Virus record (IMG/VR): IMGVR_UViG_3300046543_000437 | Location: 1 to 64,000 of that record | Strand: one strand, 5' to 3' | DNA length: 64,000 nucleotides | DNA from: a virus | In this document: positions 8,688 through 63,921 of the stretch, one piece after another | How the letters are laid out: the number at the start of each line of letters is the position of its first letter | Numbering within the stretch: position 1 is the stretch's first letter | Position numbers and translations under genes: made by a program | The notes under the pieces: model-generated | Database searches by the model: none | What the model was told of the DNA's origin: nothing | The model's input: the letters and a program-made list of their open reading frames with translations, nothing else

Positions 8688-9821
8688 TCAGTTGATCGAG
8701 TACGCCATCGTCACGAAGGCATCCTCGGTCGCTCCGGCGGCGCAGATGCGGATCGGCGAATAGCGGTCGACAAAGTGCAGTTCGACCTGTTCAGCCGCGA
8801 TCACCGAGAGGGCTTCCCCGATATGCAGGGCGTTGACCCCGATCTGTGCATCGCGCTCGCAGACCGCGCTCATCACGTCTTCAAAGGAGTGGCTGCCGTC
8901 GCGCAGCCGCAGCATCTGGTCGGCGCAGTTCAGTACCGCGCCATGCTGCCGCAGCTTCGGGTTGTCCATATCGGTGGAGATCTGCAGGCGGGCGAGGATC
9001 GACGCCAACTCGGCGCTATCGAGGGTCACCGGCTGAGCGACCAGCGGCGGCATCCACTGCTTGTAGGGCGGCGGGATCGCATCGACGAGGCTGGACATGA
9101 TCGTCCATGCAGCGGTCTTGAGGCGGATCGCGCGCCCGGTGATCGCGATCTCGATCTCGCTGGTGTCGCCTTTCAGGAAGCTGTGCAGCTTCTGGCACAG
9201 CGGCCGCGGCAGGATCACCGCCGGGAACTCGGTCGCTTCGGCATGGATGTAGCAGACCGCGCCGACCCGCCCGTCGCTGGCGGCGCCGACAGCGCGCCCG
9301 CCTTCTTCGGTCGCCTCGTAGCTGAGCGACATGCCCCACAGCGCGGGCCGGGTCGAGGCGACTTCCATCGCCGGCATGGTGAAGGTGAGGATGCGGTCGA
9401 GTTCGCTGGCGATGACGCGGATCTGCGTTTCAGGGAATTCGTGGGTGAAGACCGGCAGCGCCAGCGGGTCGAGCCCCTGCAACGCGACGTTGGTGCGGCC
9501 CGACTTGATCCGCAGCCGGTTGTCCTCCGCGCTGGCGGTCTGGTCGAAGCTGATCTCGACCGCCGCGTTGGGGCGCAGCGAGGCGATGAGGGCGGCGATC
9601 CGCGCGGCGGGGGTCGACACCGAACCCGGCTCCGCAGCGAGGAGCGGCAACCCGGCAGTCGTCAGATTGAAAAGTTGATTGCCCGCCGAGATGGTCAGCG
9701 CGCTGGCGGTCGCATCGAGCCGGACGCAGTGGAAAGCGGTGGCGGGCGACCGCTCGTCAGCGACGGCGGCAGCGCGTTGCAGCCACTCGGCGAGCGGCTG
9801 CTGGTCGGTCGTCAGCTTCAT
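8688..9821 (-). CDS. dnaN-like: DNA polymerase III beta subunit-like sliding clamp, 377 aa
   Basis: The length (377) and three-part build fit a bacterial-type beta clamp: three repeated domains of about 120 residues. Recognisable stretches include FHCVRLDATASALTISAGNQ in domain 1, GGRAVGAASDGRVGAVCY in domain 2 and the end FVTMAYSIN, which stands where host clamps have the YVVMPMRL-type end. The clamp would tether polymerase to DNA at phage forks. As no phage polymerase or helicase is seen, it probably recruits host polymerase III or redirects host clamp-binding proteins. Its start overlaps the gene before it (ATGA). Confidence 0.88.
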   Translation of the reverse strand: MKLTTDQQPLAEWLQRAAAVADERSPATAFHCVRLDATASALTISAGNQLFNLTTAGLPLLAAEPGSVSTPAARIAALIASLRPNAAVEISFDQTASAEDNRLRIKSGRTNVALQGLDPLALPVFTHEFPETQIRVIASELDRILTFTMPAMEVASTRPALWGMSLSYEATEEGGRAVGAASDGRVGAVCYIHAEATEFPAVILPRPLCQKLHSFLKGDTSEIEIAITGRAIRLKTAAWTIMSSLVDAIPPPYKQWMPPLVAQPVTLDSAELASILARLQISTDMDNPKLRQHGAVLNCADQMLRLRDGSHSFEDVMSAVCERDAQIGVNALHIGEALSVIAAEQVELHFVDRYSPIRICAAGATEDAFVTMAYSIN

Positions 9822-10693: not shown

Positions 10694-11302
10694 ATGGCAA
10701 CCCGATACACCGCCGCAGACAATGAGGATTCACAGCGCAAACAGACGCTGCGAACCAACTACTTCAAGGAATGGCGCGAACATAAAGGGGTAAGCCAGAA
10801 GAAACTGGCGAAGCTGATGCGGATTTCACCCTCCAGCGTCTGCCGGGTCGAGAACGGCGTTACCCCTTTCACTCAGGATTTTCTTGAAGGCTACGCCGCA
10901 GCTCTCGGCATTACCGCGCTGGCCTTGCAGATGAGCAAGCCAAAAGAGGCCGAAAGATATTCCCGTCTTGCCGACATGTGGGCAACGCTCCGCGCTGACC
11001 AGCAGCTTGGCGTCCTCAAGCTGATCGGCGACATCAGTGGACCGCGCAATGAAACAGCCCAGCTTAACCGTCTGTTGAAGACGTGGAAAAAGCTGCGCGC
11101 GGATCAGCGCGACGTTCTTGGCTGGATCGCCATCGAGGTCAAATTCTGTCAGCCCGATGTCACGGCGCAGATCCGGCAAATATGGCGCTATTGGGGTTCG
11201 CTCGATCCCGATCAGCGCGAGCGCGGGATGACGATCCTCCAGACCGTGTTCCCGGACACCGTGAAGGAACAACAGCAGTCACCCGTTCGCGTTGAGGCTT
11301 GA
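10694..11302 (+). CDS. XRE-family transcriptional repressor (CI-like candidate), 202 aa
   Basis: An N-terminal XRE helix-turn-helix lies at residues 27-82 (HKGVSQKKLAKLMRISPSSV, then CRVENG). The C-terminal 110 residues are helical with repeated LRADQ/LDPDQ segments; there is no LexA-type serine peptidase motif. Prophage induction would therefore need another route, such as an antirepressor. It is divergent from the Cro-like gene and shares the operator region with it. GGCAGGG precedes the ATG at 10694. Confidence 0.8.
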   Translation: MATRYTAADNEDSQRKQTLRTNYFKEWREHKGVSQKKLAKLMRISPSSVCRVENGVTPFTQDFLEGYAAALGITALALQMSKPKEAERYSRLADMWATLRADQQLGVLKLIGDISGPRNETAQLNRLLKTWKKLRADQRDVLGWIAIEVKFCQPDVTAQIRQIWRYWGSLDPDQRERGMTILQTVFPDTVKEQQQSPVRVEA

Positions 11303-11305
11303 TCA

Positions 11306-11494
11306 ATGGCAAGAAACTATCGCATCCGGTTCATTGCGGAATTCAGCCAGACCATCACCGCCGATGACGACGCCCAAGCCAGACAGATCGCCGACGATCT
11401 GATCATGGCGGAAAAGCTGTTGCAGACCGCACACGCCGACAACCAGGCCCGCTGCCGGTGGAACATCATCAAGTTGATCAAGACAGATGACTAA
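11306..11494 (+). CDS. small hypothetical protein, 62 aa
   Basis: It starts three bases after the repressor stop and is probably co-transcribed with it. The protein has a beta strand (NYRIRFIAEFSQTITA) followed by a helix (DAQARQIADDLIMAEKLLQ) and one cysteine, the pattern of many small phage proteins that accompany repressors. No family is recognised. The 235 bases after it, to 11729, are AT-rich (around 11560-11620) and show no gene. Confidence 0.65.
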   Translation: MARNYRIRFIAEFSQTITADDDAQARQIADDLIMAEKLLQTAHADNQARCRWNIIKLIKTDD

Positions 11495-12081: not shown

Positions 12082-12474
12082 ATGGATCGCGAACAGGTCT
12101 GGACCCTGGCGGAAACCGCTGAAAGGTTTCGCTTCACCGAAAGGCAGTTAAAAGGCCTTGTGAAGCGGCGCAGTATCCCGGTGTTGTCGACCGGCAAGCA
12201 CATCCGGTTCGACGCGCTGGCAATCAACGAACTAGAAAAGGCTCTGAGAAAACCATGTCCTATAAATACCGCAAGCGCCGCGACACCGGACGCTACGAAA
12301 TCTTCGGCCCCGACCCGCGCCCGTGGAAAACCTACGGGCCAAACGGCTTTCGACAGACTACGCGCGCAACAAGCGCAAAGCTCGTCAGGGAAGAAGCCGC
12401 CACGCTCTACAAGCAGCATGCTCAGGAAGCGTTCCACGGGCCAGGTCGTCCCGATCGGAAGTTTGCCGAAATAG
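12082..12474 (+). CDS. xis-like: MerR-like excisionase/helix-turn-helix protein overlapping the integrase, up to 130 aa
   Basis: The first 57 residues are a typical excisionase DNA-binding domain: WTLAETAERFRFTERQLKGL, then IPVLSTGKHIRFDALAINEL. After residue 57 the frame runs on for 73 residues over the start of the integrase gene in another frame. That part is serine-, proline- and arginine-rich and low in complexity, so it may be a by-product of the overlap. The integrase frame is the -1 frame relative to this one. The domain would direct the integrase toward excision. The ribosome site is weak. Confidence 0.7.
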   Translation: MDREQVWTLAETAERFRFTERQLKGLVKRRSIPVLSTGKHIRFDALAINELEKALRKPCPINTASAATPDATKSSAPTRARGKPTGQTAFDRLRAQQAQSSSGKKPPRSTSSMLRKRSTGQVVPIGSLPK

Positions 12475-13448
12475 CCGAAGCCTATTTCGACCACGAACAG
12501 CGTTCCCCGGCGCAAAAAGAGCGGGTGATCGCGCTGAGCATGGCGTTGGGTGATGTCGTCGCCTCGACGATCGACAATGAGACAGTCGCCGCCTTGAAGC
12601 GCAAGCTGATCAAGAAGAGCGAGCCGTCACCGGCAACAGTACGGGCGATGATCATCGGGCCGCTCAAGGCGGTGCTCAATTTTGGCTATCCCAAGATGTG
12701 CGGCAAGCCGGTGTTCAAGCCGCAGACCCAGCGCAAGTCGCCGACCCTCATCGTTTATCCCGACAAGGCGCAGCGCATCATCGACGCAGCGGCGCCGCAT
12801 CTGCGCGGCATCCTCACCTTTATCGGCGGTGTCGGCTCGCGCGCCACCGAGACCCTGGCGCTGACGTGGGACTACAACCACCCCGATGGCGGGATCGATC
12901 TGGTCGCCGGGATCGCGCGGATCATGCAGAAGCCCAAGCGCAAGATCCAAGGCCCGCGCGAGCGCATCGCCAAGCTGCCGCCCGCCGTGATCGCGATGCT
13001 GGCGAACCTGCCGCCAACCGGCCCGTTGGGCGAGCGCACGGGTCAGGTGTTCCGCTGGGAAAGCAATGTCGGGCGCAAAGGGCGCGGCACCCGCAGCGCC
13101 GGGTACGCGAAGAAGAAGGCGGCGACCGGCGGCGGGCAGTTCAAGACCGCGCTCAACGGCGCGCTGCGCCGCGCGGGCTGCGCGGGCGAAGGGATCAGCG
13201 CGCACACCTTCCGCCATGCGTGGGCATCGTGGCACTACGCGATCCACAAGGATCTGCTCCTCCTCCAGAAGGACGGCGGCTGGGAGAGCCTGTCGATGGT
13301 GGCGCGCTACGCCCACCAGATGCCGGCGGGCCATGAGGCAGACATACTGACCTTCTGGGGCTACCCCGCCTCGGTCGCGGACGAGCTGTCTTCTGCGATT
13401 CACACGAAAATCACACTGGCTCTCGAACAGCACCGCTTAAAGGCTTGA
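12255..13448 (+). CDS. int: tyrosine recombinase, phage integrase, 397 aa
   Basis: The catalytic residues are in place: R196 (GGVGSRATETLALTW), H317-x-x-R320 (AHTFRHAW), W343 in the position usually held by His or Trp, and the nucleophile Y352 (MVARYAHQ). The arm-binding and core-binding regions fill residues 1-165. It inserts and excises the phage at the attP core that begins 32 bases after its stop. The 3' end of the gene also contains the left arm-type site. The start at 12255 overlaps the excisionase frame by 220 bases; ribosome binding is weak, so translation may be coupled to xis. Confidence 0.93.
   Translation: MSYKYRKRRDTGRYEIFGPDPRPWKTYGPNGFRQTTRATSAKLVREEAATLYKQHAQEAFHGPGRPDRKFAEIAEAYFDHEQRSPAQKERVIALSMALGDVVASTIDNETVAALKRKLIKKSEPSPATVRAMIIGPLKAVLNFGYPKMCGKPVFKPQTQRKSPTLIVYPDKAQRIIDAAAPHLRGILTFIGGVGSRATETLALTWDYNHPDGGIDLVAGIARIMQKPKRKIQGPRERIAKLPPAVIAMLANLPPTGPLGERTGQVFRWESNVGRKGRGTRSAGYAKKKAATGGGQFKTALNGALRRAGCAGEGISAHTFRHAWASWHYAIHKDLLLLQKDGGWESLSMVARYAHQMPAGHEADILTFWGYPASVADELSSAIHTKITLALEQHRLKA
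13398..13416 (+). other. putative left arm-type integrase site
   Basis: ATTCACACGAAAATCACAC, inside the 3' end of int. It differs by one base from the site at 13621-13639. Each copy carries WTCACAC twice, ten to eleven bases apart, about one helical turn. Together the two flank the attP core at 63 and 94 bases distance, as expected for P and P' arms. Confidence 0.72.
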
Positions 13449-13479
13449 TCTTAAATGACAATTCCGGCATCGAGCATTA

Positions 13480-13526
13480 GCCTTCTAAGCAGGCTGTCGC
13501 GAGTTCGAGTCTCGCCGGGGTCGCCA
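13480..13526 (+). other. attP: attP core: 3' half of a tRNA gene, probably tRNA-Arg(TCT)
   Basis: The 47 bases reproduce a tRNA from the anticodon arm to the CCA end. There is a CTTCTAA anticodon loop (anticodon TCT), a five-base variable region, a perfect T stem GCGAG/CTCGC (13499-13503 and 13511-13515) around the T loop TTCGAGT (13504-13510), acceptor strand CGGGGTC, discriminator G and CCA (13524-13526). The 5' acceptor strand, D arm and the matching anticodon stem are absent, so this is not a working tRNA. On insertion it would restore the host tRNA 3' end. The anticodon is read from spacing and is probable, not certain. Confidence 0.82.
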
Positions 13527-33847: not shown

Positions 33848-36800
33848 TTAAGGCCGTTGCGCGATCACGGTGATGCCGATGTCGGCCAAGGTCGCGTCTT
33901 GCGATGCCGGCGCGACGAGCTGCACCACATCGCCCGCCACCAGAGAGGCTCCAGCGCCCGACAGGGTGCAGGAGGTTGCCGACGTGGTTGTGATCACGAT
34001 GCTGCCGATTGCGGTCGTCGTGCCGCCCGAAATCTTGTTCACGGTGAAGGTCGCGTTGGCGGTGCTTCTCACGCTGTCATAGACCACTGATCCCGCCAAG
34101 GCGGCAGGGATGGACAACGCCATCCCGATGACCACGTTGAAGACCGCGCTGGCCGCAGGCTTACCCGGCAGGATGAAGGAGAGCGGCACGCTGCGGACAT
34201 ATCGGCGGGTTGCTGGCTGGAGGTTCGCGGTTGGGTCGGCGGCCAAGGTGAGCGCGCCGGTCATCGTTCCGCCGCCCGTGGGCAAAAATGAGGTCGAGGT
34301 CGAGATCGTCGGTGGCGACGTTCCGGTATCGATGCTGATGCCGGAACCGGCCACATAGCCGCTGCCATCAGCGCCTTGCGGACCTTGGAGATTTCCCTTC
34401 AACGCCCAAATGTTCGCGCCCGTCCCGGCGAGACGCAGTAGCGTTTCATGCCCATCGAGTGTCGAGATCAGAAACTCGACATTACCGTCGCCATCGAGGT
34501 CCGCGATCAATGGCGTTCCTTCGATCCCTGCCGGCATGCGGAACTGCCCGACCATCGCGCCCGCTTCACTATACGCGCCGACCGTCCCGCTCATGTCGCA
34601 GCTTACCGCGACGACGCCGCCATGCGATCCGAAGTCGACGATGCTTGGGCTGGAGTTGATCCCGATTCCACCGGGGGCAAGCTGGGCCTGCCAGTGCAAA
34701 GTGCCATCTGTATTGAAGCACCAGACGATGCCGAGATCGTTACCGACGACAAAGCGGCCATCGGCGAAAATCGCGGGCCGGTCGTCCACGTCCGCGCCCA
34801 TATCGATGGTTGCGTGCTTCACTGCGCCCGTTTGACCATTCAAGACGTAGACATTGTTCGACCGGCTCGATGCGAGGATTTCGATCACACCATCGCCGTC
34901 GATGTCGGCGGCCGAGACGAACGCATCCATCCCATCATCGCCGGTCGAGGACGGCTTTGTTCGCCACTTCAGAGCGCCGGTCGCTGAGTTCAGGCAGTAA
35001 AAATAACCATCCACGCTGCCCACGCAGACTTCGGCCTGCCCGTCGCCATCTACGTCCATAACGAGCGGAAACGGCTCGATGCTCTCCCCCGTCTGATAGC
35101 GCCAGACCATCGCGCCGGTCGTTGCGTTCAGCCGGACGATCTGCCCGTCGAAGCAACAGACGTACAGCGCCGTACCGACGAGCGTCCCGGCATGCTGGTA
35201 GTAACCGTCGCTGTCGTAAGCAGGAATGACCTTGTAATGGCTAGTGGCGTCGGGGATCGGCGAGAAGGCATCGTATGTCCAGATTTTGTTTGCATCGGTC
35301 TGAGAGATTTCGCGGGTTTGACCCGCGCCGGTCCCAGAGGTGATCTGAATGGAAGCGTTCTCGCCCTGAACCCCGCGAAAGTTAAAGCAGTTTGGCACCC
35401 AGTTCTTCGTCGTATCGGTGATGTTGAATTGAGTTGCCGAGGTCACCGTGCCGGTGCCTTCACGATCGTAGACGCTATGCCACTGCCAAATCCACCCGCC
35501 GGTCGAATTCAGGCACCGGACGGTGCCGTCGTGACTAGCGCCGAAGAACTCAGGCTCGCCGTCGCCGTTGACATCGCCCGCTTGGCAGCGACCGTAGCAG
35601 GAGTCCGCGAACGCATAGCGCCAGCGAACTGCACCGTTGGCATAGTCCAAGACGTACAGGAACCAATCCCAAGTCTGAAAGACAACCCATTGGTTGACGC
35701 CCGCCGCTCGCGCATTGGCGAAGCCAGCCTTCGGGACAAGGATTGGCGAACTGTAGTTGGGTTCGCCGCCGGGAGTGTTCCAATTCCAGACCGTCGTCAT
35801 CAGCAGACCGTTATTCGACTTCTGATAGAAGTCACCAGTGTCTGCGTCGATATAGAAGTCACCAATATTGCCGAGCGCGAGGGCAGGTATTCCAGAGCCT
35901 TCATACCATATCGAGCCGGGGGTTCCGGCTGAGCCGGCGGGTCCGGTCGGGCCACTCGGCCCCGGCGGTCCCGGCACTGTGCTGGCGGGTCCAGCAGGGC
36001 CGGTCGGGCCACTCGGCCCAGGTGGTCCCGGCACCGTGCTAGCGGGTCCAGCAGGGCCTGGAGGACCGGCTGGGCCAGTACCCGCAGTGATCGGAACGCC
36101 GTTGATATAATAGCCGCCCGTCACATTGACGGTCCCGGCACCCAAATCGCCGCCGGTCGGCATCCCCCCAGCAGCGGTGGTCAGCGCCAGCCCCCGGCTG
36201 AGCGACATCCGCAGGACTGAGTTGATCGTTCCCGGCGTGTTGGTGACGAACTCGATCGCCGCCCCGGCTGCGCTGTCCGTCCAATTCTCGGTGGCGCGTA
36301 TCTGCACGCCCGCCACGGCTTGACTGTAGCCGGTCGCCAGCCGCCCGTTCGACCCGAAGAACCCGACGAGGTCGCCCACCTGTACAGCCGCTGGAGCCGC
36401 CGCGTTCCCGCGGGAGAAGCGGCAGAGGTAGAATGGGTTGCCGCTCGCGGTATTGGCATAGGCATCGAGCATATGCCCGACACCTTCCGGTCCATCGTTC
36501 GACGCGAGAAAGAGTACCGGATAACCAACCGGCGCATGCGGTCTGCCAGGATTGATCGCGAGCGCGCCGGTAAGGGTGCCGCCTGCGAGTGGAAGCCCGC
36601 CCAAGGCTGCGAGCGCGGCGACCGGCGTCGTCGAATTGGTCCCGCCATTGGCAATCGAAACCGGCACCGCCAGACTGATAAAAACCTGACCGCTCGTTCC
36701 GCCGCCGGTCAGCCCGACGCCAGGAATGACGGCAGTGATCGAACCGCCGCCGCTGCCGTCACCCGTTCCCGGCGGGCCTTGCGGCCCCGGCTGATTTACA

Positions 36801-37099
36801 ACCGCAACCCACTGTGCGCTGTTACCGTCGTCAAAATAAATGTAGAGTTGAGCGCCAAAGGAATCAAACCATAACGTCCCTGGATACGGGTTAGCTGGAG
36901 GTTGCGTACCAATAATAGCACGACCGATATAAGACCTACCCGGTATAGGCTCGAATATCCACTTTCCACCGACAGCCATACCGTCACCAACGACGATATC
37001 TCCGTTGGAAACATTGATAACCACCTCGCCTTGCAGCGGCGTATAACTAGCAAGGCTGGTGTCTGTTCCTCTCGTTTGCTGAAGCTGTTTGTGCGACAT
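33848..37099 (-). CDS. tail fibre with collagen-like stalk and calcium-site beta-propeller, 1083 aa
   Basis: The layout is an N-terminal attachment region (1-330), a Gly-X-Y stalk of about 55 residues with a tandem repeated 18-residue unit (336-391), a beta-propeller (about 405-895), a short second PQG segment, and a C-terminal beta knob. The propeller has four calcium loops of the DxDGDG type (VNGDGEPEF, DVDGDGQAEV, DIDGDGVIEI, DLDGDGNVEF, near 508, 683, 733 and 869), as in FG-GAP/integrin-type blades. It also has PQQ-like words (GAVRWRY, GAMVWRY, GALKWRT). A propeller head is a good candidate for receptor binding. Confidence 0.85.
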   Translation of the reverse strand: MSHKQLQQTRGTDTSLASYTPLQGEVVINVSNGDIVVGDGMAVGGKWIFEPIPGRSYIGRAIIGTQPPANPYPGTLWFDSFGAQLYIYFDDGNSAQWVAVVNQPGPQGPPGTGDGSGGGSITAVIPGVGLTGGGTSGQVFISLAVPVSIANGGTNSTTPVAALAALGGLPLAGGTLTGALAINPGRPHAPVGYPVLFLASNDGPEGVGHMLDAYANTASGNPFYLCRFSRGNAAAPAAVQVGDLVGFFGSNGRLATGYSQAVAGVQIRATENWTDSAAGAAIEFVTNTPGTINSVLRMSLSRGLALTTAAGGMPTGGDLGAGTVNVTGGYYINGVPITAGTGPAGPPGPAGPASTVPGPPGPSGPTGPAGPASTVPGPPGPSGPTGPAGSAGTPGSIWYEGSGIPALALGNIGDFYIDADTGDFYQKSNNGLLMTTVWNWNTPGGEPNYSSPILVPKAGFANARAAGVNQWVVFQTWDWFLYVLDYANGAVRWRYAFADSCYGRCQAGDVNGDGEPEFFGASHDGTVRCLNSTGGWIWQWHSVYDREGTGTVTSATQFNITDTTKNWVPNCFNFRGVQGENASIQITSGTGAGQTREISQTDANKIWTYDAFSPIPDATSHYKVIPAYDSDGYYQHAGTLVGTALYVCCFDGQIVRLNATTGAMVWRYQTGESIEPFPLVMDVDGDGQAEVCVGSVDGYFYCLNSATGALKWRTKPSSTGDDGMDAFVSAADIDGDGVIEILASSRSNNVYVLNGQTGAVKHATIDMGADVDDRPAIFADGRFVVGNDLGIVWCFNTDGTLHWQAQLAPGGIGINSSPSIVDFGSHGGVVAVSCDMSGTVGAYSEAGAMVGQFRMPAGIEGTPLIADLDGDGNVEFLISTLDGHETLLRLAGTGANIWALKGNLQGPQGADGSGYVAGSGISIDTGTSPPTISTSTSFLPTGGGTMTGALTLAADPTANLQPATRRYVRSVPLSFILPGKPAASAVFNVVIGMALSIPAALAGSVVYDSVRSTANATFTVNKISGGTTTAIGSIVITTTSATSCTLSGAGASLVAGDVVQLVAPASQDATLADIGITVIAQRP

Positions 37100-52401: not shown

Positions 52402-54015
52402 TTACCGCACCTGAGACAGTACGGGGTAAAAGTCACAGGTCGAACTCGACCCGTCCTCGGCGGTCAGTGTGAGAAGCCCTTCGTTATCGATCGTCGCGCT
52501 GACGATCCGCCCCGGCGGGCCGCGTTCCCCACGCGGACCCGCTTCACCCTTCTCCCCACGCTGACCTTGCTTGGCGATCAGTTGCCAATTCTCGCCGGGG
52601 CAAACCCCAGGCTGGTCAGACCGCGCAATAAACGACGCGCCGCCGAGCGCCACGATGTCCAAAGCGCGATAATCTGTCCCGGCTTTCCAAGTACCGCGAA
52701 CGGTCAACGAGCGGCCATCGACCCCCGGCGCCGCCAAACAGATCCAATCGTCATGCGGCGGCGGATGCCCGGTGTCCCGCTGGGCCTGCCAGGTGGCTCC
52801 CTCACGAACGACGACCTCCCCCTCGTAATGGACGCCGTCCTGCCACAGCTTGACCGGCGGCAGCTTGCCGATCAGCCCTTCTGCCCCACGTTCGCCGCGC
52901 TCACCGGCCTCACCACGCGGTCCCAGATCGCCGTCACGCCCCGGCATTCCCGGCTCACCGCGCTCACCGATCTCGCCGCGCTCGCCCTGTGGCCCCGCTT
53001 CGCCGCGTTCGCCGGGTAGACCGGCTTCGCCGCGCTCGCCCGGTAGACCGGCTTCGCCGCGCTCGCCCACCGCCCCTGCTTCGCCACGCTCACCGGGCAA
53101 TCCCGGCTCGCCACGCAGCCCCGGTTCGCCATCACGGCCCGCCGTGCCAGCCGGACCCATCGGCCCCGGCTCGCCGTCCTCGCCATCGGCACCGTTGACA
53201 CCATCATCGCCGTCTTCACCGGGTTCGCCTTGCGGCCCCGGCGGTCCCGGCTGGCCCGCTGGTCCCGGCGGCCCCGGCTCGCCCTGCGCGCCGGCTGGTC
53301 CCGCTTCTCCAGGCTCGCCATCTGCGCCGTCTTTACCGTCCGCTCCGGCTGGTCCCGGCGGTCCCGGATCGCCCTTGGCTCCAGGCGGTCCCGGTTCGCC
53401 TTGCGGCCCCGGCTGACCATCCATACCGGCGACGCCGTCATCGCCGTCATCGCCCGGTGGACCCATCGGCCCGATGTCGCCCTTCGGCCCCATCGGCCCC
53501 GGCGGGCCGACTTCAGGCGCGGGCAACCGCGTCAAGGCAGTCTCGACGATCAGCCGCGCCATCACGGCCTCGTCTGGCGGCGGCCCCATCGGCCCCAGCA
53601 ACCCCGGCTCACCGCGCGCCCCGCGCTCGCCTTGTGGCCCAGGAAGCCCCTGTTCGCCAGATGGGCCTGTGACAGCCTCACCGGGCAATCCACGCTCCCC
53701 AGCCTCACCACGCTCGCCCTGCGGGCCGATCTCGCCGCGGTCCCCCTTCTCGCCTTGCGGACCCGGTGGGCCGACAATGGTTTCCCCCGGCTGACCACGC
53801 TCGCCTTGCGGGCCTTGCTCGCCGTTCCGCAGCGTCATCAGCCGGGTCACGATTTGCAGTTCGAGCTCAGCCTTGAACGCGCGCAGAGACTCGATTTCCT
53901 GTCGAAGCTCTGCCAGACCGGCTGTCAGGGATAGCTTGACCTCTCGCTCAATCCGAGCGGCGACAGCCCCCATGACCTCGCCAAGAACATCAGGCAGCGA
54001 GTCGATGGCGGTCAT
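52402..54015 (-). CDS. collagen-like protein with carbohydrate-binding-like C-terminus, about 537 aa
   Basis: A 60-residue helical head with heptads (about 8-60) leads into about 320 residues of Gly-X-Y repeats with many GERGE, GPPG and GEDGDDG units. The C-terminal 150 residues have [20 protein letters not shown] and [20 protein letters not shown], a W-Y-G-W spacing like CBM5/12 modules, then a second short collagen run. The ATG at 54015 is taken; 54075 is in frame but lies deeper in the portal gene. It may be a head fibre. Repetitive DNA (27-base units near 53015-53067) makes length variable. Confidence 0.8.
53014..53067 (-). repeat. tandem 27-base repeat in the collagen-like gene
   Basis: Two adjacent copies of a 27-base unit beginning GGTAGACCGGCTTCGCCGCG, with degenerate copies on both sides, encode GLPGERGEA-type triplets. 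This kind of repeat can change copy number by slippage. Confidence 0.7.
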
Positions 54016-55396
54016 ATGAAGCGCGGAAGGCGGCACGGAAGGCAGCGTTTTGTTGCTGCTGTTGCTCTGGTGCATTTGTGTCGCCCCCGTCAGTCGGTGC
54101 CGGCGGCGGTGTCGGCGGGGTCGCGGATGGCGGTGATGGAGGTTCCATCTTTGCGCCGTAGCTCAACGGCACAACTTGCTGTTGCACCCGTGGCATGTCG
54201 CCGTAGCCGCCCTTGACCTTCGGCAGGTCTTCGCTCGCCCGCGCCTCGTCCGGCGAGTAGATGCCACTGATGACACCGCGCGCCAACGCCTCGATCCGCT
54301 CGCGATAAGCCGAGCGAAGAAGCGCCTTGGTGTCGAATTCGAGGTACTCGTCAGGATAGCCCGCCAAACCGAACATCTGGCCGAAAGCTTCCTCGATGTG
54401 GTTCAGCGCAAAGCCGAGGCCGCTCGCGATCCACGACTGCATCAGCAATTCGGTCGAGTTGTAGGTCGTGCCGCCGAGGCCGAAAATCTGAAGCGGAATC
54501 CGCAGCGCCAGAGCGATGTTCTGGTCGCTCATCTTAAGGATTTCGGCAAGCTGGGAATCGACCGCATTGATCACGGCGGGCTTCGCTTTGAGGCCGTGAG
54601 TGAGGATCGGGCTGTTCCCGGCATTCTCGCCTTGCGTCTGATCGTCCCACCTCGAACGCGCATCCTCGACCTGTTGCCGGGTCAGCGGCTGGTCAGTCTC
54701 CAGCATGTAGGAGGGGCGAGCCATGTTGAGGTAGAAGGCGAGTTGCTGCGACAGCGCCGCGGTCGACATCGCCAGTTCGAGCGCCGCCGCAAGGATCGGG
54801 CTGACGCCTTTCAGCGGATGAACCGGAGTATGCAGCCGGACGTGCAGAACATCGCGCGCCGGAGCCGGGATCGTCAGATCGAACCGCCGTTGGGCGATCT
54901 CGTTGCCCCACAGGCTGTAGAAGACGCTGCCGTCCTCGCCGATCATGGCGATGCCGCTCCGCATCAGATGCAACTCGGTGATCTCGCTGCGGGCGTTGCG
55001 CTGAGCCACCGCGAACACCTCGCCCTTGTCGTAAAGGCGACGTGTCAGGTTCATCATAAAATCGGAGATGCTCTCATAATCGTTGGGGGTCTTGATGATC
55101 CGTTGCAGGGCGCTGGTGGTGACGCGCTCGCGCCCGCCGTCACGGGTGCGGCGCCAGTGGTCGCCAGGACACATGGCAACGGTCTGGCTGTACGCCGAGA
55201 CGCACGCCTCGACCATCGCGCTGCGCTGACCGTAGGGCTGCGGCTTGTATCCGGTCTGCCACCAGTTCCAATAGCGACCGGCGCTGGCAGTGATCAAGCC
55301 GCCGCCGGGATCGTCGACCCAATACGGGCCGGGACGGTACTGCCCCTCGACAGCCCGCTTGCCCCACGGCAGCAGGTTGGTCAGCCAGTTTGCCAT
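53990..55396 (-). CDS. HK97-type portal protein, 468 aa
   Basis: The phage portal family pattern is clear: [60 protein letters not shown], then [20 protein letters not shown] and the clip and barrel region. The C-terminal 70 residues are a proline/glutamine tail. It forms the dodecameric gate for DNA. In HK97-type phages portal usually comes directly after TerL; here it follows the capsid genes, which is unusual. Confidence 0.93.
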
Positions 55397-57830: not shown

Positions 57831-59753
57831 TTACGATGGCGACCAGTTGACGCCTGTCATAAATTGCACCATCTGCGGTCGCCGCATGGCCCAGGTGACA
57901 TTCGCCAGCATGCGAATGGCGATCTGCGCGGTCTGGAACATCGACTGCACCGGGGCGGCCACGACCGGCGGCGTACCGGCAACGCCGATATTCGCCGGGG
58001 CGGTGTCCTCCATATGGAGGGTTGCCACCTCGCTGACCTCGAATTCCGGCGCACCGCTGACGCTCACAAAGTCCACCGCGTCAATCATGTACACCGAACC
58101 CGCCGGGACACTGGTCGATTCGATGACATCGAAGCGCCCGGTGAACTGGCTCGACCATCCGAACGGCACGCCGGTCGGACCCGGAGCGAACATGAGCTGT
58201 TGGCCCTGTTGCGGGTTGAGCAACATGCTCAGCCTGCGACCGGCGTTCAACGCATAGAACGGCCCGGTGAGCGCCTGGATGTCGGCCAGGATCGCCAGAT
58301 AGCCCTTCGCCGTCGAAGCGACGACCGGGGTCACGCCGTTGGTCAGGCCCGCAGGGCGGGTCGTCGACACCGGATTGCTGTCAAGGAGGAGCGCGTCGAT
58401 ATTGATCGACGTGTCGTCCGTGATCGCTTGCCGGATGATCCCCTCGATCGCGGGATTCGAGTACATCGCGATCTCTCGCGAGAACACCGAAAGCCCACCG
58501 ACTTTGTGGGGATACAACGTGATGCTGGTCGTGCCGAGCCTGCGGACAGGAATAGGCGCACCCTCACCGACAAACGATCCGCCAATGCTCGGCGTGATCG
58601 TCCGCGACGGGATCTTGATCGCTCCGGCGTTGGCGCTGAACGTCAGTGCCGTACCGGCCGCGGCCAACCTCGGGAAGACGCTGACCGGGGTCAGAACCTG
58701 GAGGAAGTCGGCTTGTGCGAGAACGATCAGTTCCGCCGCCCAACCCGGCGTGAGGGTCGTGGCCCCGGCAACCGCGGCGCGGGTGACGATGGCAGTCGCC
58801 TCATGGTCTGGGTAGCGTTCAGCCAGAACCTCATCGAGGCTCCGATGCGTCACCTGGCTGACGAACTTGCAGACCATCGCCCTGGCGAGGAGATCACCGG
58901 GCGAAATGTCCTTCATCGGGATGCCGAGCGGTCGCCGGTTGCCGTTGACCGGCACCGGAAGCGCGACCTGTTGCTGGCCGCCCTGCTGTTCCGCCGTGCG
59001 GATCGCCAGCGCCTTTTCACTACGCTGTAGCGAGGCGAGCCGCTTTTCGTGTTCCTCGACCTCCTGTTGCAGGGTGTCCGCTTCCTCGGTGTCATGTTCG
59101 GGGTCGCGGACAAGTTCGATAAGCGCGTCACGGGCAGCCGTAAGCATCGACTGCCGGTCTTCAACCTGTTGTGAAATCGTGGTCACAGGAATCGTCCTTC
59201 TGTTGGACGATTGACGTTCGGCGTGCTTGCCGGTGAGCATGTCCCGTCGGCCCGTGTCGGCTTGCTTGCCAAAGACGAGGGACATGGTTTCTTGCGAAAG
59301 CTTCAGTGACTTTGCGACTTGCAGCGCCGCCGGGTTGGCCGGGATGCTGACGATGCTGGTTTCCAACAGCTCCTGTTTGAGGTAGCGCAGCCCGCCGTAA
59401 GGATCCTTGGGATCGAGCGGCTCGGTCTCGATGGATTGAAAGCCGACACTGGTCGCGCGCAGGATGTCCTGCTCGATCAGGTTGACGATTTCATCGATGC
59501 GTTGAGAGGTGCCGCGCGCCGCCGGGACGAACTCGCCAAGCAGCTTGCCATTCTCGACCCGGACGTTGGCCCAGGTGCCGATCGGGAACGAGCCTTGATG
59601 GCCGAACAGCGCGATCGGATTGCGTTGGAAGTTCGCGAGTTGCCAGCCTGTCGGCTCGATGATGTCGCCGTAGCGATCAACCGTGGCGTCACTGAGGACA
59701 TAGGTCATCGACCCGGCGACTTTGCCGGTCGCGATCTTGCGGATCATATCCAC
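57831..59753 (-). CDS. prohead protease-major capsid protein fusion, 640 aa
   Basis: The first 180 residues are an S78-type prohead protease: ALFGHQ (H52) and RATSVGFQ (S102) with VDRYGDIIEPTGWQ before them. Residues about 195-262 form a coiled coil (a delta/scaffold region) and the rest is an HK97-fold capsid (FLQVLTPVSVFPRLAAAGTA and the KIPSRTITPSIGG E-loop region). Fused protease-capsid genes occur in some phages. The protein would assemble, then cut itself. The conserved leader hairpin precedes it. Confidence 0.93.
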   Translation of the reverse strand: MDMIRKIATGKVAGSMTYVLSDATVDRYGDIIEPTGWQLANFQRNPIALFGHQGSFPIGTWANVRVENGKLLGEFVPAARGTSQRIDEIVNLIEQDILRATSVGFQSIETEPLDPKDPYGGLRYLKQELLETSIVSIPANPAALQVAKSLKLSQETMSLVFGKQADTGRRDMLTGKHAERQSSNRRTIPVTTISQQVEDRQSMLTAARDALIELVRDPEHDTEEADTLQQEVEEHEKRLASLQRSEKALAIRTAEQQGGQQQVALPVPVNGNRRPLGIPMKDISPGDLLARAMVCKFVSQVTHRSLDEVLAERYPDHEATAIVTRAAVAGATTLTPGWAAELIVLAQADFLQVLTPVSVFPRLAAAGTALTFSANAGAIKIPSRTITPSIGGSFVGEGAPIPVRRLGTTSITLYPHKVGGLSVFSREIAMYSNPAIEGIIRQAITDDTSINIDALLLDSNPVSTTRPAGLTNGVTPVVASTAKGYLAILADIQALTGPFYALNAGRRLSMLLNPQQGQQLMFAPGPTGVPFGWSSQFTGRFDVIESTSVPAGSVYMIDAVDFVSVSGAPEFEVSEVATLHMEDTAPANIGVAGTPPVVAAPVQSMFQTAQIAIRMLANVTWAMRRPQMVQFMTGVNWSPS

Positions 59754-60030: not shown

Positions 60031-60792
60031 TCAGGCTACGGGAAAACTCAGTCGGTCATTCGCCGCGAAATCCTTGCGCCGACGCCAGCCCAAAATACCA
60101 CCGAGGGCAACGAGGCTGCCGCCCATCAGGGCCAAGCTGCCGGGTTCCGGCACGGCGATCTGGCTGGCGATCGGCACGATGTAGAAGCTCTCCGCGCCAT
60201 CCGAGGCACCATCCCATGCAGCATGGAACAGGAGGTTGTCACCCGGCTGCACCCCGGCATCGAGAAGGTCGAAGCCCGAGATGAGGTAGTCGCCCATGCC
60301 GTTGCCGTTGCGGATGTCCGGCAGCGCCAGACTGCCGGTGAAATCGAAAATCACCCGCTGCCCCGCCGGGAGCGACAGGTCGATAAGTTGAAAAGCCGTC
60401 AATGTCTCGCCGTTGTGCGCGGTGTTGATGTCGATCGCGACCCCAAAATCAAACCGGGGATCGGTGCCCCCGGCATTGAGGAACGCCTCCAACAGCGTGC
60501 CGGGATACGCGAGCGCCCCAGCCTCGCCACCGACCAGCGGACCGCCGCCAAGGATGTTGGTCGAGAAGGTATCGAAGCTGGTATCGCTGCCGGTATTGGA
60601 GAAATTGTTGTAGCCGAAATTCGCAGGCTGACCCGGTGCAGTCGTGCCGCAAATGATGCACGGGTTGCTGAGCGACTGAGGCACCGGACTGTTCAGCACG
60701 CCGATCGTCAGGTTGTTGAGCGCATCGGCTTGGGCCGGTCCGGTGAGAGCGGCACTGACGAGCAGTGCGGCAGCGAGAAAAACAGCTTTCAT
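60031..60792 (-). CDS. PEP-CTERM sorting-signal protein, 253 aa
   Basis: A cleavable signal peptide (1-22, MKAVFLAAALLVSAALTGPA and QA) is followed by a beta-rich secreted domain, and at residues 214-239 by the full PEP-CTERM signal: VPEPGSLALMGGSLVALGGI plus LGWRRRK. Host exosortase-type enzymes cut at PEP and anchor such proteins outside the cell. The ATG at 60792 has AGGAG eight bases before it. Proteins with this signal are normally host extracellular matrix components. Finding one between TerL and capsid genes is striking. Confidence 0.88.
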   Translation of the reverse strand: MKAVFLAAALLVSAALTGPAQADALNNLTIGVLNSPVPQSLSNPCIICGTTAPGQPANFGYNNFSNTGSDTSFDTFSTNILGGGPLVGGEAGALAYPGTLLEAFLNAGGTDPRFDFGVAIDINTAHNGETLTAFQLIDLSLPAGQRVIFDFTGSLALPDIRNGNGMGDYLISGFDLLDAGVQPGDNLLFHAAWDGASDGAESFYIVPIASQIAVPEPGSLALMGGSLVALGGILGWRRRKDFAANDRLSFPVA

Positions 60793-60809
60793 AGGGGATT
60801 CTCCTAACG

Positions 60810-61004
60810 TCAATTGGCCTTAATAACCCCAGCAAGGACACGTTTACGCACCGTTCCGCGCTTTGCCACCCCGCGTGCGGCCTGTCTAGTCGGCGCTCTG
60901 TAAAGCGTGACCTGAACCGCCGGATCTTTACGGCGCTCAGCCTTGGCATGCCTCATCTGGGATCGCTTCAACTGCTTTCCCGATTGCACCAGCGCCTTCT
61001 TCAT
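60810..61004 (-). CDS. small basic protein, 64 aa
   Basis: Very basic (about one third Lys and Arg) and short, starting right after TerL with a weak ribosome site: KKALVQSGKQLKRSQMRHAK and a long arginine-rich end. It may bind DNA, the terminase or nucleic acid during packaging. Not recognised. Confidence 0.6.
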   Translation of the reverse strand: MKKALVQSGKQLKRSQMRHAKAERRKDPAVQVTLYRAPTRQAARGVAKRGTVRKRVLAGVIKAN

Positions 61005-61007
61005 AAT

Positions 61008-62525
61008 TCAGCCAATCAATGCGAAAGCGTCGAACGCCGGTTCGCTCAAAGGTGCGACACCAACCGCCATGAGGAGGGCGACCATGCCGTCGATCCGCCC
61101 CGTCGATTTGTCCTTCGCCAGCTTGCGATTGCCCGCCGGGTCGGACTGCACCACCGCGTTCGCCGCGCACATCTTCAGGATCGGATGACCGCCGTGGGCG
61201 ATCCGCCCGTTGAGGATCTCGGCCTCAAGGTCGCGCATCGCCGGACTCATGCTCTGAAAGCCCTGCCCGAATTCCACAAACGTATTGTCGATGAAGAGCT
61301 CGTCGAACCCGGCCCGCACCAGCCACGGCTTCAGGTGTTTGAAGCCCCAGCGGTCAAAGGCGATCTTCTGGATATCGTACAGGCTGAACTGCTCGCGCAG
61401 ATAATGCGCGACGAACTCGTAATCGACCGATCTTCCCGGCGCCGCCTGGAGGTAGCCGTCGCGGTGCCAGAGGTCATACGGCACACGATCCTTGTGCGCC
61501 TTCTCGGCCAGACCGTCGCGCGGCAGCCAGAAAGTCGGATGAACGTGCCAGACCTCATCGATCCGCCCGATCAAGACCAGCGCGGTCAGGTCGTTGACCG
61601 CCGACAAGTCCAGACCGCCGTAGACCGGCCCCTCCTCGATCGGCTGCGGCTCCGCAGAACAGGTCGCCCAGACCCCCTGCGAGATGAACGGCGATGACGC
61701 CTCGACCCGCTGGTTCAGAACATAGTTGCGAAACTCGGCCTCTCGGCTCGGCATCCGGCGGGCATCCTCGGCCATCGCCAGAACCTCGACCGAATTCTGG
61801 AACTCCCCATAGGCCGGGTTCGCCAGCTTGATCGTGTCCTCGTCGAACGGATCGTCATCGAGCGGCGCGCTGTAGAGGCTCACCACGACCCGGTCATCGT
61901 GACCGGCGATCGCATCATCGATCAGAACCGACAGCAAGTCGGCATCGTGCGGAGCCTGGGTCGAGATGATGATGGTCAGCGGATCCGACTGACCCGCCGT
62001 CGCGGTCTCCATCGCCTCGTAAAGCTGCGACCTCGGCCCACGCACCTGGCCCAGTTCGTCATGGACGCAGAAGACCGGGCTCAAGCCAAACGCGGTGGTC
62101 GCTTCCGCCGACAGCGCGCGATACACGGTGCCCAACTCAGGGCAAGTCAACTCCTTGCGGGTTTCGTGCATCGTGATGTTGTCGTAGAGGTCCGGCGACT
62201 GCCGCACGATCTTGACCGCCAGGTCGAACAGGATCGCGGCCTGCTGCCGCGACTGCGCCGTACTGAAGAGTTGTGAATTCGGGCGAGCCTCTGGGCCGCA
62301 CAGATGCAGGAGCAACAGGCAGGCGGCCAAGGCGGTCTTGCCGTTCTTGCGCCCGAAACTGAGGATCGCGCGCCGCGTTCCCGCCGGATTGTCGTAAATC
62401 CGCCGGATGTTGTCCCTCTGCCAAGGCAGCAAGACGATCGATCGACCGCCGAACTGCCCCTCCGGAACGACGCAGAACTTCTGAATCCAGATGATGTTCT
62501 TTTCGGCCCGCGTCAGCTTTCCCAC
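61008..62525 (-). CDS. terL: terminase large subunit, about 505 aa
   Basis: The ATPase loop GRKNGKT is at residues 58-64, FCVHDELGQV gives Walker B, and GGLDLSAVNDLTALVLIG with IAFDRWGFKHLKPWLVRAGF gives the nuclease metal residues, as in HK97-type TerL (Terminase_1). I choose the GTG at 62525, which overlaps TerS by 13 bases. The frame is open to an ATG at 62696, but that would add 57 glycine- and arginine-rich residues inside the TerS gene. It packages DNA into heads and cuts it. Confidence 0.9.
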   Translation of the reverse strand: MGKLTRAEKNIIWIQKFCVVPEGQFGGRSIVLLPWQRDNIRRIYDNPAGTRRAILSFGRKNGKTALAACLLLLHLCGPEARPNSQLFSTAQSRQQAAILFDLAVKIVRQSPDLYDNITMHETRKELTCPELGTVYRALSAEATTAFGLSPVFCVHDELGQVRGPRSQLYEAMETATAGQSDPLTIIISTQAPHDADLLSVLIDDAIAGHDDRVVVSLYSAPLDDDPFDEDTIKLANPAYGEFQNSVEVLAMAEDARRMPSREAEFRNYVLNQRVEASSPFISQGVWATCSAEPQPIEEGPVYGGLDLSAVNDLTALVLIGRIDEVWHVHPTFWLPRDGLAEKAHKDRVPYDLWHRDGYLQAAPGRSVDYEFVAHYLREQFSLYDIQKIAFDRWGFKHLKPWLVRAGFDELFIDNTFVEFGQGFQSMSPAMRDLEAEILNGRIAHGGHPILKMCAANAVVQSDPAGNRKLAKDKSTGRIDGMVALLMAVGVAPLSEPAFDAFALIG

Positions 62526-62938
62526 GGTTTCGTCTTCGGCACCTTCGCCGCCGCCCGTCCCGCCGCTTGAGGAACGTACCGGGCCTGATTGGTCAGCCGC
62601 AGCTTTGTCGCCAGCGTTGTTGCGCCGCGCACCTCGCGCTCCCGCATTACCAGGAGGACGCGATACCGGGCCAGCTTTGCCGCCTGTTTTAGCCATGCCG
62701 GTTTAAACTGCATGATTTCGACATTGAGGATTTCCGATGCCTCGCGGAAGCGACAGTAATCCGCCAACAATGCCCGCAACGCACCCGAATTGAAGAACTT
62801 GGCGTCTTCGCTGGCAACCACTTCGCGCCAGATATCGGCCTGCCTCGGCGTCAGTCCCGGCGGCGGATCAGGCCGCTTGCCAAAGTCGCCCACGACGATC
62901 TGTGTCGTAGACGGCGAAACGATGCCTCGCGTCTTCAT
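62513..62938 (-). CDS. terS: P27-like terminase small subunit, 141 aa
   Basis: The pattern PPGLTPRQADIWREVVASED and AKFFNSGALRALLADYC, then a basic helix region and ALVRGATTLATKLRLT, matches the P27 (phiE125 gp) small terminase family. The ATG at 62938 overlaps the HNH gene (ATGA). It recognises the packaging site. Confidence 0.88.
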   Translation of the reverse strand: MKTRGIVSPSTTQIVVGDFGKRPDPPPGLTPRQADIWREVVASEDAKFFNSGALRALLADYCRFREASEILNVEIMQFKPAWLKQAAKLARYRVLLVMREREVRGATTLATKLRLTNQARYVPQAAGRAAAKVPKTKPWES

Positions 62939-63354: not shown

Positions 63355-63921
63355 TCAAGCGAAAACGCCTGCCAGGGTCTCCAACCCCAGTTCCGCCGGA
63401 ACCTGGCGATTGAACATCGTCAACAGTGTCTGCGCCCTGCCCCGGTCATCAATATCCTGCAATGTCGCCATGAAACTGGCAAACGGTCCTTCCGCCACCC
63501 GCATCGCATCACCCGGCTTCACCATCGCCTTACCGGCACGAAACACCGCCCGCGACACGCCCCGGCTCAACGGGCGGTCATCGAACAGACCTGCCTCTGA
63601 TTCCGCGCGGACCTCCTCGATCAGCCCCGGCTCGACAATAGCGGGCATATCGTGATCCCCCGCCTGACGAACCACATCGCACACTCCCGGCGTGTACAGG
63701 ATGTCGATCCACGCCTGACCCGGATGCAGCTCGACAAACAGATAGCCGCGAAACAGCGGACGCATCACCATCTCGCCGTAGCTGTCCCGCTTGCCGCGCA
63801 GCAGCTTGCGATACACCGGCAAGCAAACCCGGTAACCCCGGCGCCGTAACGCACCCTGCGCCGCGAACTCAGCCATCGGCTTAGACACCACGACAGCCCA
63901 ACCTTCGCCCGTTATGTCCAT
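63355..63921 (-). CDS. nusG-like: NusG-like transcription elongation factor, likely late antiterminator, 188 aa
   Basis: An NGN domain fills residues 7-105 (WAVVVSKPMAEFAAQGALRR, PLFRGYLFVELHPGQ, GVCDVVRQAG) and a KOW region is at about 134-165 (MVKPGDAMRVAEGPFASFMA). This is the length and layout of NusG/RfaH. Being first in the late operon it probably lets polymerase read through terminators of the 40 kb late transcript; this is inference. GGGGGCGAGG precedes the ATG. Confidence 0.87.
   Translation of the reverse strand: MDITGEGWAVVVSKPMAEFAAQGALRRRGYRVCLPVYRKLLRGKRDSYGEMVMRPLFRGYLFVELHPGQAWIDILYTPGVCDVVRQAGDHDMPAIVEPGLIEEVRAESEAGLFDDRPLSRGVSRAVFRAGKAMVKPGDAMRVAEGPFASFMATLQDIDDRGRAQTLLTMFNRQVPAELGLETLAGVFA

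Follow-up and report, generated by a model that had tools for sequence, protein, structure and literature searches.

A phage-restricted family of PEP-CTERM proteins with C-terminal anchors exchanged among unrelated phages

The stretch of DNA analysed here, termed the window, comprises the first 64,000 nucleotides of the virus record IMGVR_UViG_3300046543_000437 (64,257 bases). Encoded on it are a terminase of the HK97 type, a fused protease/capsid protein, portal and tape measure proteins and, in addition, a tyrosine integrase as well as an HTH protein, possibly the repressor (Table 1). Due to the integrase, the possible repressor, and the tRNA 3' half situated after the integrase gene, the phage is probably temperate. 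A DNA polymerase III beta clamp gene, with all three domains above the cut-off, occurs at 8688-9821 (minus), and a 1083-aa tail-region protein with beta-propeller/FG-GAP repeats is encoded at 33848-37099 (minus); the N-terminus of the latter gives a weak major-tropism-determinant match below the cut-off.

As described in an earlier note on this DNA, a gene encoding a PEP-CTERM protein is located between the terminase and capsid genes and in the same direction, all of these neighbours being on the minus strand. Its ORF runs from an ATG at 60792 to a stop at 60031 on the minus strand, and the plus-strand frame at 60031-60792 is unrelated to it. The order of this gene, the capsid, portal, and tail genes is repeated with 100% identity in L014, an independently assembled contig of another metagenome. 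This argues against a misassembly, which the earlier note had considered.

Table 1. Location of features in the window and in related loci
Feature	Location	Strand	Evidence
PEP-CTERM protein gene, 253 aa	60031..60792	minus	ORF; PF07589 and TIGR02595 above cut-off; conserved family
AGGAG ribosome-binding site, 8 nt 5' of ATG	60801..60805	minus	sequence
Signal peptide, residues 1-22, small residues and A-x-A ahead of Asp23	60727..60792	minus	sequence
Ectodomain, residues 23-212, predicted beta-sandwich	60157..60726	minus	A3 alignment, AlphaFold2 model, dN/dS
Invariant C-x-x-C, residues 45-48, within VPQSxSxPCIIC	60649..60660	minus	A3 alignment
C-terminal sorting signal: PEP (60142-60150), hydrophobic stretch, RRRK (60073-60084)	60073..60156	minus	PF07589, hydropathy
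64-aa basic ORF between terminase and PEP-CTERM gene	60810..61004	minus	ORF; no Pfam match
Terminase large subunit	61008..62696	minus	PF20441, PF03354; phrog_9
Terminase small subunit	62513..62938	minus	phrog_12559
Prohead protease/major head protein fusion	57831..59753	minus	phrog_617, PF04586
Portal protein	53990..55396	minus	PF04860, phrog_12
Tyrosine integrase	12255..13448	plus	PF00589
tRNA 3' half, reads Arg-UCU, ends CCA, adjoins integrase, probable attP	13470..13526	plus	inspection; too short for ARAGORN/Rfam
Canonical PEP anchor	window, L080-L082, L084		
PxPxxWxF anchor	L002-L013, L069, L073, L077, L078, L101		
VPLPA-like anchor	L070-L072, L074-L076 and others		
PExxW anchor	L079		
PIVGAGLPG anchor	L085, L095-L098, L102; variant PAVGAGLPG in L089		
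Second PEP-CTERM genes	L079:11036-11608, L080:6097-6783, L081:9291-9989, L082:9258-10004		

By inspection and hydropathy, the N-terminus of the window protein (MKAVFLAAALLVSAALTGPAQA, followed by D) is a Sec signal peptide, of which A20 and A22 are nearly invariant in the alignment of the family. Residues 213-240 (AVPEPGSLALMGGSLVALGGILGWRRRK) constitute the PEP-CTERM signal and are followed by 13 more residues up to the C-terminus; this extension beyond RRRK is longer than usual and counts against a sorting function. The C-terminal signal described in the earlier note was confirmed by the model search proposed there: PF07589 scores 26.6 bits over residues 213-239 (cut-off 20.7, E 5.8e-6) and TIGR02595 gives 23.3 bits (cut-off 16). 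When the whole 64 kb record was searched in six frames, the PEP-CTERM match proved unique to this gene. Furthermore, a simple rule combining signal peptide, proline motif, transmembrane stretch, and basic tail in ORFs of at least 90 aa selects 1 of 201 such ORFs in the window. Applied to all loci, it selects 49 of 4,561 ORFs, namely 44 family members, four adjacent second PEP-CTERM genes, and one false positive. The LPXTG cell wall anchor model TIGR01167 also scored 16.7 versus 15.9, but the match covers only positions 12-34 of the 34 model positions and the sequence contains no LPXTG; this candidate was rejected. The product is with high probability a phage-encoded exosortase-type surface protein, irrespective of its exact role.

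Three search rounds in viral contigs identified relatives on 47 other contigs, with 41-76% identity over the best segment. In 84,980 species genomes, no cellular relative was observed in two scans with patterns similar to those that find the viral loci, whereby the scans depend on short exact motifs and distant cellular relatives could escape them. Likewise, no relative was found among the 50,697 phage records of INPHARED (queries: window and L079 proteins) or in the plasmid set (query: L077 protein). The carriers are unrelated, with at least three terminase types (phrog_9, phrog_38, and phrog_2) and portals belonging to phrog_12, phrog_156, and phrog_146. That the PEP-CTERM protein is indeed phage-encoded, as the earlier note had it, is strengthened by the existence of this family, which is conserved, mobile, and phage-restricted and has unrelated carriers. 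Among cultured phages, those of Rhizobium and Bradyrhizobium come closest to the terminase of one carrier (56-58%), and several carriers possess early recombination genes with a match of approximately 40% to a Bradyrhizobium phage, which at most hints at the host. A search of the integrase against plasmids, likewise aimed at the host, gave an uninformative best match of 27%.

None of the 53 loci with a terminase related to that of the window carries the PEP-CTERM gene within the DNA available for each locus. The closest structural relative is L018 (64% in the terminase, 62% in the capsid); there, the site is empty and the capsid gene directly follows the terminase gene. Among the carriers, the gene is situated in head, lysis, recombination, and integrase regions: it adjoins the terminase gene in L083, L084, and L095, endolysin or small membrane genes in L070, L075, L085, L086, L089, L096, and L097, and the integrase gene in L073 and L101. 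Thus the earlier assignment to the head operon is correct for the window phage but not for the family, and the position of the window gene is incidental. A role in the virion, which had also been suggested, is unlikely, since neither the signal peptide nor the sorting anchor is missing from any complete member and since the gene is tied to no single capsid type or genome position and absent at the site in L018. The window protein has no match to a PHROG head or tail family, or to any other PHROG, and a fixed structural position of the gene was not observed among the carriers.

The family gene is best regarded as accessory cargo that circulates in tailed phages, temperate ones included, whose hosts would be exosortase-bearing bacteria. 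Similar to phage morons, it is absent from close relatives, variable in position, and transferred between unrelated phages; it differs from morons in that a promoter or terminator of its own could not be recognised in the window, where the scan performed no better than chance. Near the family gene of several different carriers (L005:3300-3677, L012:41-382), a small protein (IxxGPxIxxGxSLSxGxDCSAG...) is encoded, which also occurs within L070:8202-8870 (minus). Its L005 copy has no Pfam or PHROG match.

The ectodomain of approximately 190 residues is under strong purifying selection, with dN/dS values of 0.02-0.18 in all computable pairs and more than 40 invariant positions. Even for L012 and L013, which are unrelated phages, a dN/dS of 0.04 was observed at a synonymous divergence of 0.64. 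The motifs VPQSxSxPCxIC, FGVxID, DxxxGNGxxDY, and SFY are kept across 31 aligned members, in which the Cys-x-x-Cys is invariant. PEP-CTERM proteins are common in bacterial hosts, and a host gene acquired by chance and carried along without use might be considered. Such a passenger is contradicted by the purifying selection, the spread through unrelated phages, and the failure of the above scans to find a cellular relative, and we regard it as the least probable of all explanations discussed here.

The ectodomain was matched by no entry of Pfam, NCBIfam, PHROG, or the PDB, and with the tail removed nothing relevant remained in Pfam or NCBIfam; by these comparisons it is a new family. A sequence relative among superinfection exclusion proteins was not found either. 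AlphaFold2 gave a poor model with 8 sequences (pLDDT 47) and a usable one with 31 sequences (pLDDT 67, pTM 0.66), in which a beta-sandwich is predicted with pLDDT values mostly of 75-90 in the second half. The best Foldseek hits in the PDB (E 0.009, TM 0.24) and among viral structures (E 5e-4, TM 0.15) were rejected as homology. Hence neither sequence (Pfam, NCBIfam, PHROG) nor structure (PDB, viral) provided a relative from which a function could be derived.

All 44 complete members share the arrangement of signal peptide, proline motif, transmembrane stretch, and basic tail, and five anchor types, i.e., canonical PEP, VPLPA-like, PxPxxWxF, PExxW, and PIVGAGLPG, occur on a single ectodomain tree. 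The tails of L080 and L082 exceed the cut-off of TIGR02595. Scores below the cut-off were obtained with the VPLPA-CTERM model TIGR03370 on L072 and others (best 23.0 versus 25.35 bits) and with the PEPxxWA-CTERM model NF035944 on the family protein of L079 (29.6 versus 35). The PIVGAGLPG-type tail, consisting of VP[AG]PIVGAG[LI]PG, a hydrophobic stretch, and basic residues (VPIPAVGAGLPG in L089), matches none of the sorting-signal models, and a plasmid search with it, in which the query may be masked as low complexity, found nothing. This tail is a candidate for an undescribed exosortase signal. The two scores below the cut-off and the missing model match of this tail count against the sorting reading.

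On the ectodomain tree, the anchor type changes at least 8 times, compared to a possible minimum of 4. In the pairs L075/L086, L070/L086, and L072/L091, the upstream DNA, the signal peptide, and mostly the anchor are shared, but the ectodomain is different: DNA identity mostly amounts to 80-100% at the ends and to 45-67% in the ectodomain. The opposite was observed by DNA comparison for L098/L102, L091/L089, and L004/L012, which have the ectodomain in common but not the anchors and flanks. Ectodomains and anchors are thus swapped in both directions; in our reading, the anchor is adapted to the host, whereas the ectodomain has a conserved task of its own.

A signal peptide combined with a C-terminal transmembrane stretch and a basic tail would by default give a protein anchored in the inner membrane, and known exclusion proteins act at the inner membrane or in the periplasm. 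The family could accordingly comprise periplasmic exclusion proteins with an uncut tail serving as membrane anchor only and an ectodomain that blocks DNA entry. A plain anchor, however, needs no proline motif, yet all complete members have one, and for the anchor types there are matches to distinct curated sorting signals, in two cases only weak ones; this alternative is therefore improbable. Lysis proteins of the unimolecular spanin kind, with an N-terminal outer-membrane and a C-terminal inner-membrane anchor, were considered as well. The beta-rich exported domain and the endolysin or small membrane genes adjoining in several carriers would agree with a spanin. Since every aligned member lacks a lipobox, and even a cysteine, where the signal peptide is predicted to end, and since the window gene adjoins terminase and capsid genes and no lysis genes, a spanin is nevertheless extremely improbable.

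Exosortase is encoded on none of the 47 carrier records searched (window phage and 46 others), so that sorting must depend on that of the host. An exosortase-free carrier with varying tail types is also what would be expected of a decoy, i.e., an abundant phage substrate that occupies the host enzyme, whereupon host PEP-CTERM proteins no longer arrive at the surface and the matrix releases the cell. But a decoy needs no ectodomain of 190 residues with the conservation described above, and we consider it very unlikely, though a little less so than a spanin.

In four carriers (L079-L082), a second, unrelated gene for an exported PEP-CTERM protein is located directly beside the family gene. That of L079 is a true member of the FxDxF family (NF038126; 76.4 versus 50 bits), and its tail passes the PEPxxWA-CTERM model (37.6 versus 35). 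That of L080 gives a longer-range match to floc-associated PepA (NF033554) of 36.5 bits, which is below the cut-off. Both families carry the same kind of tail as the phage proteins, but neither is matched by the phage ectodomain without its tail.

From the signals, conservation, horizontal spread, and modular swapping, which were observed directly, we infer Sec export, exosortase processing, surface display, and a biological role as follows. The product would leave the cytoplasm through Sec and lose its signal peptide, and the C-terminal helix would hold it until a host exosortase cuts at the proline motif. The infected cell would then receive the beta-sandwich ectodomain on its outer surface or in its matrix. 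For cellular PEP-CTERM proteins, these last steps are supported by the literature, according to which exosortase substrates reach the cell exterior (PMC12188702, PMC11980579). The anchor would thereby be the part fitted to the exosortase type of the host, and the ectodomain the active, conserved part. An effect on the host surface thus appears to be the best explanation for a PEP-CTERM protein in a phage.

By blocking receptors or matrix, the ectodomain might keep related phages or the phage's own progeny from adsorbing to infected cells or debris. Receptor-jamming phage proteins, e.g., Llp of T5, prevent superinfection and adsorption to debris (PMC9586334). Llp and similar exclusion proteins are likewise small, exported accessory phage proteins at the envelope, which is a functional analogy only: the lipoprotein Llp resides at the outer membrane, on its periplasmic side, whereas the phage family has an exosortase-type anchor, a larger beta-sandwich, and no lipobox. 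On this analogy, adsorption blocking, against superinfection or readsorption, is tentatively favoured, perhaps with somewhat less than an even chance of being correct.

With the same sorting model, the protein might instead alter the EPS, flocculation, or attachment of a lysogen, without excluding phages. Exosortase substrates stabilise EPS (PMC12188702, PMC11980579), as do PEP-CTERM proteins in floc formers according to work cited in PMC12188702, and the weak PepA match next to the L080 family gene points in this direction as well. A search of 40 carrier records, many of them fragments, however, detected integrases in only 6, and several copies are surrounded by late genes, a setting in which a permanently altered phenotype would be of little use. 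A matrix change is therefore rather unlikely, albeit ranking close behind adsorption blocking.

The known substrates of the PEP-CTERM/exosortase system (PF07589, TIGR02595) agree with the phage proteins in the signal peptide, in the C-terminal succession of PEP motif, hydrophobic stretch, and basic cluster, and in having divergent, unannotated ectodomains. In contrast to these, the proteins described here are phage-encoded on records without an exosortase, and one ectodomain family occurs with several anchor types. In the literature searched, to which most subscription journals do not belong, no report of a phage-encoded PEP-CTERM protein or exosortase substrate was found; the tail and the pathway are already known, but a phage-restricted family with swapped anchors in unrelated phages is not reported there. 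It is tempting to speculate, with about equal grounds for and against, that the family represents a dedicated surface-display cassette common to unrelated phages of exosortase-bearing bacteria, with a conserved ectodomain, a tail exchanged per host exosortase type, and sometimes a second PEP-CTERM protein. Exosortase sorting would then be a pathway exploited by phages, and PIVGAGLPG followed by hydrophobic and basic residues an undescribed sorting signal. A conserved phage family of this kind, with its exchangeable anchors, would show the use of the host exosortase pathway by phages and help to assign sorting signals to the exosortases that recognise them. It would also add to the known surface changes brought about by phages one that matters for biofilms and flocs.

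Two further genes of the window phage have counterparts in other carriers. A 557-aa collagen-repeat protein is encoded at 52402-54075 (minus) between the portal and head-tail adaptor genes, and a collagen-like gene occurs at the matching place in L003, L006, L007, L009, L011, and L012. An RfaH/NusG-like antiterminator gene (phrog_6386) is situated upstream of the terminase genes at 63355-63921 (minus), and in L083 such a gene (10871-11452) lies between the PEP-CTERM and terminase genes.
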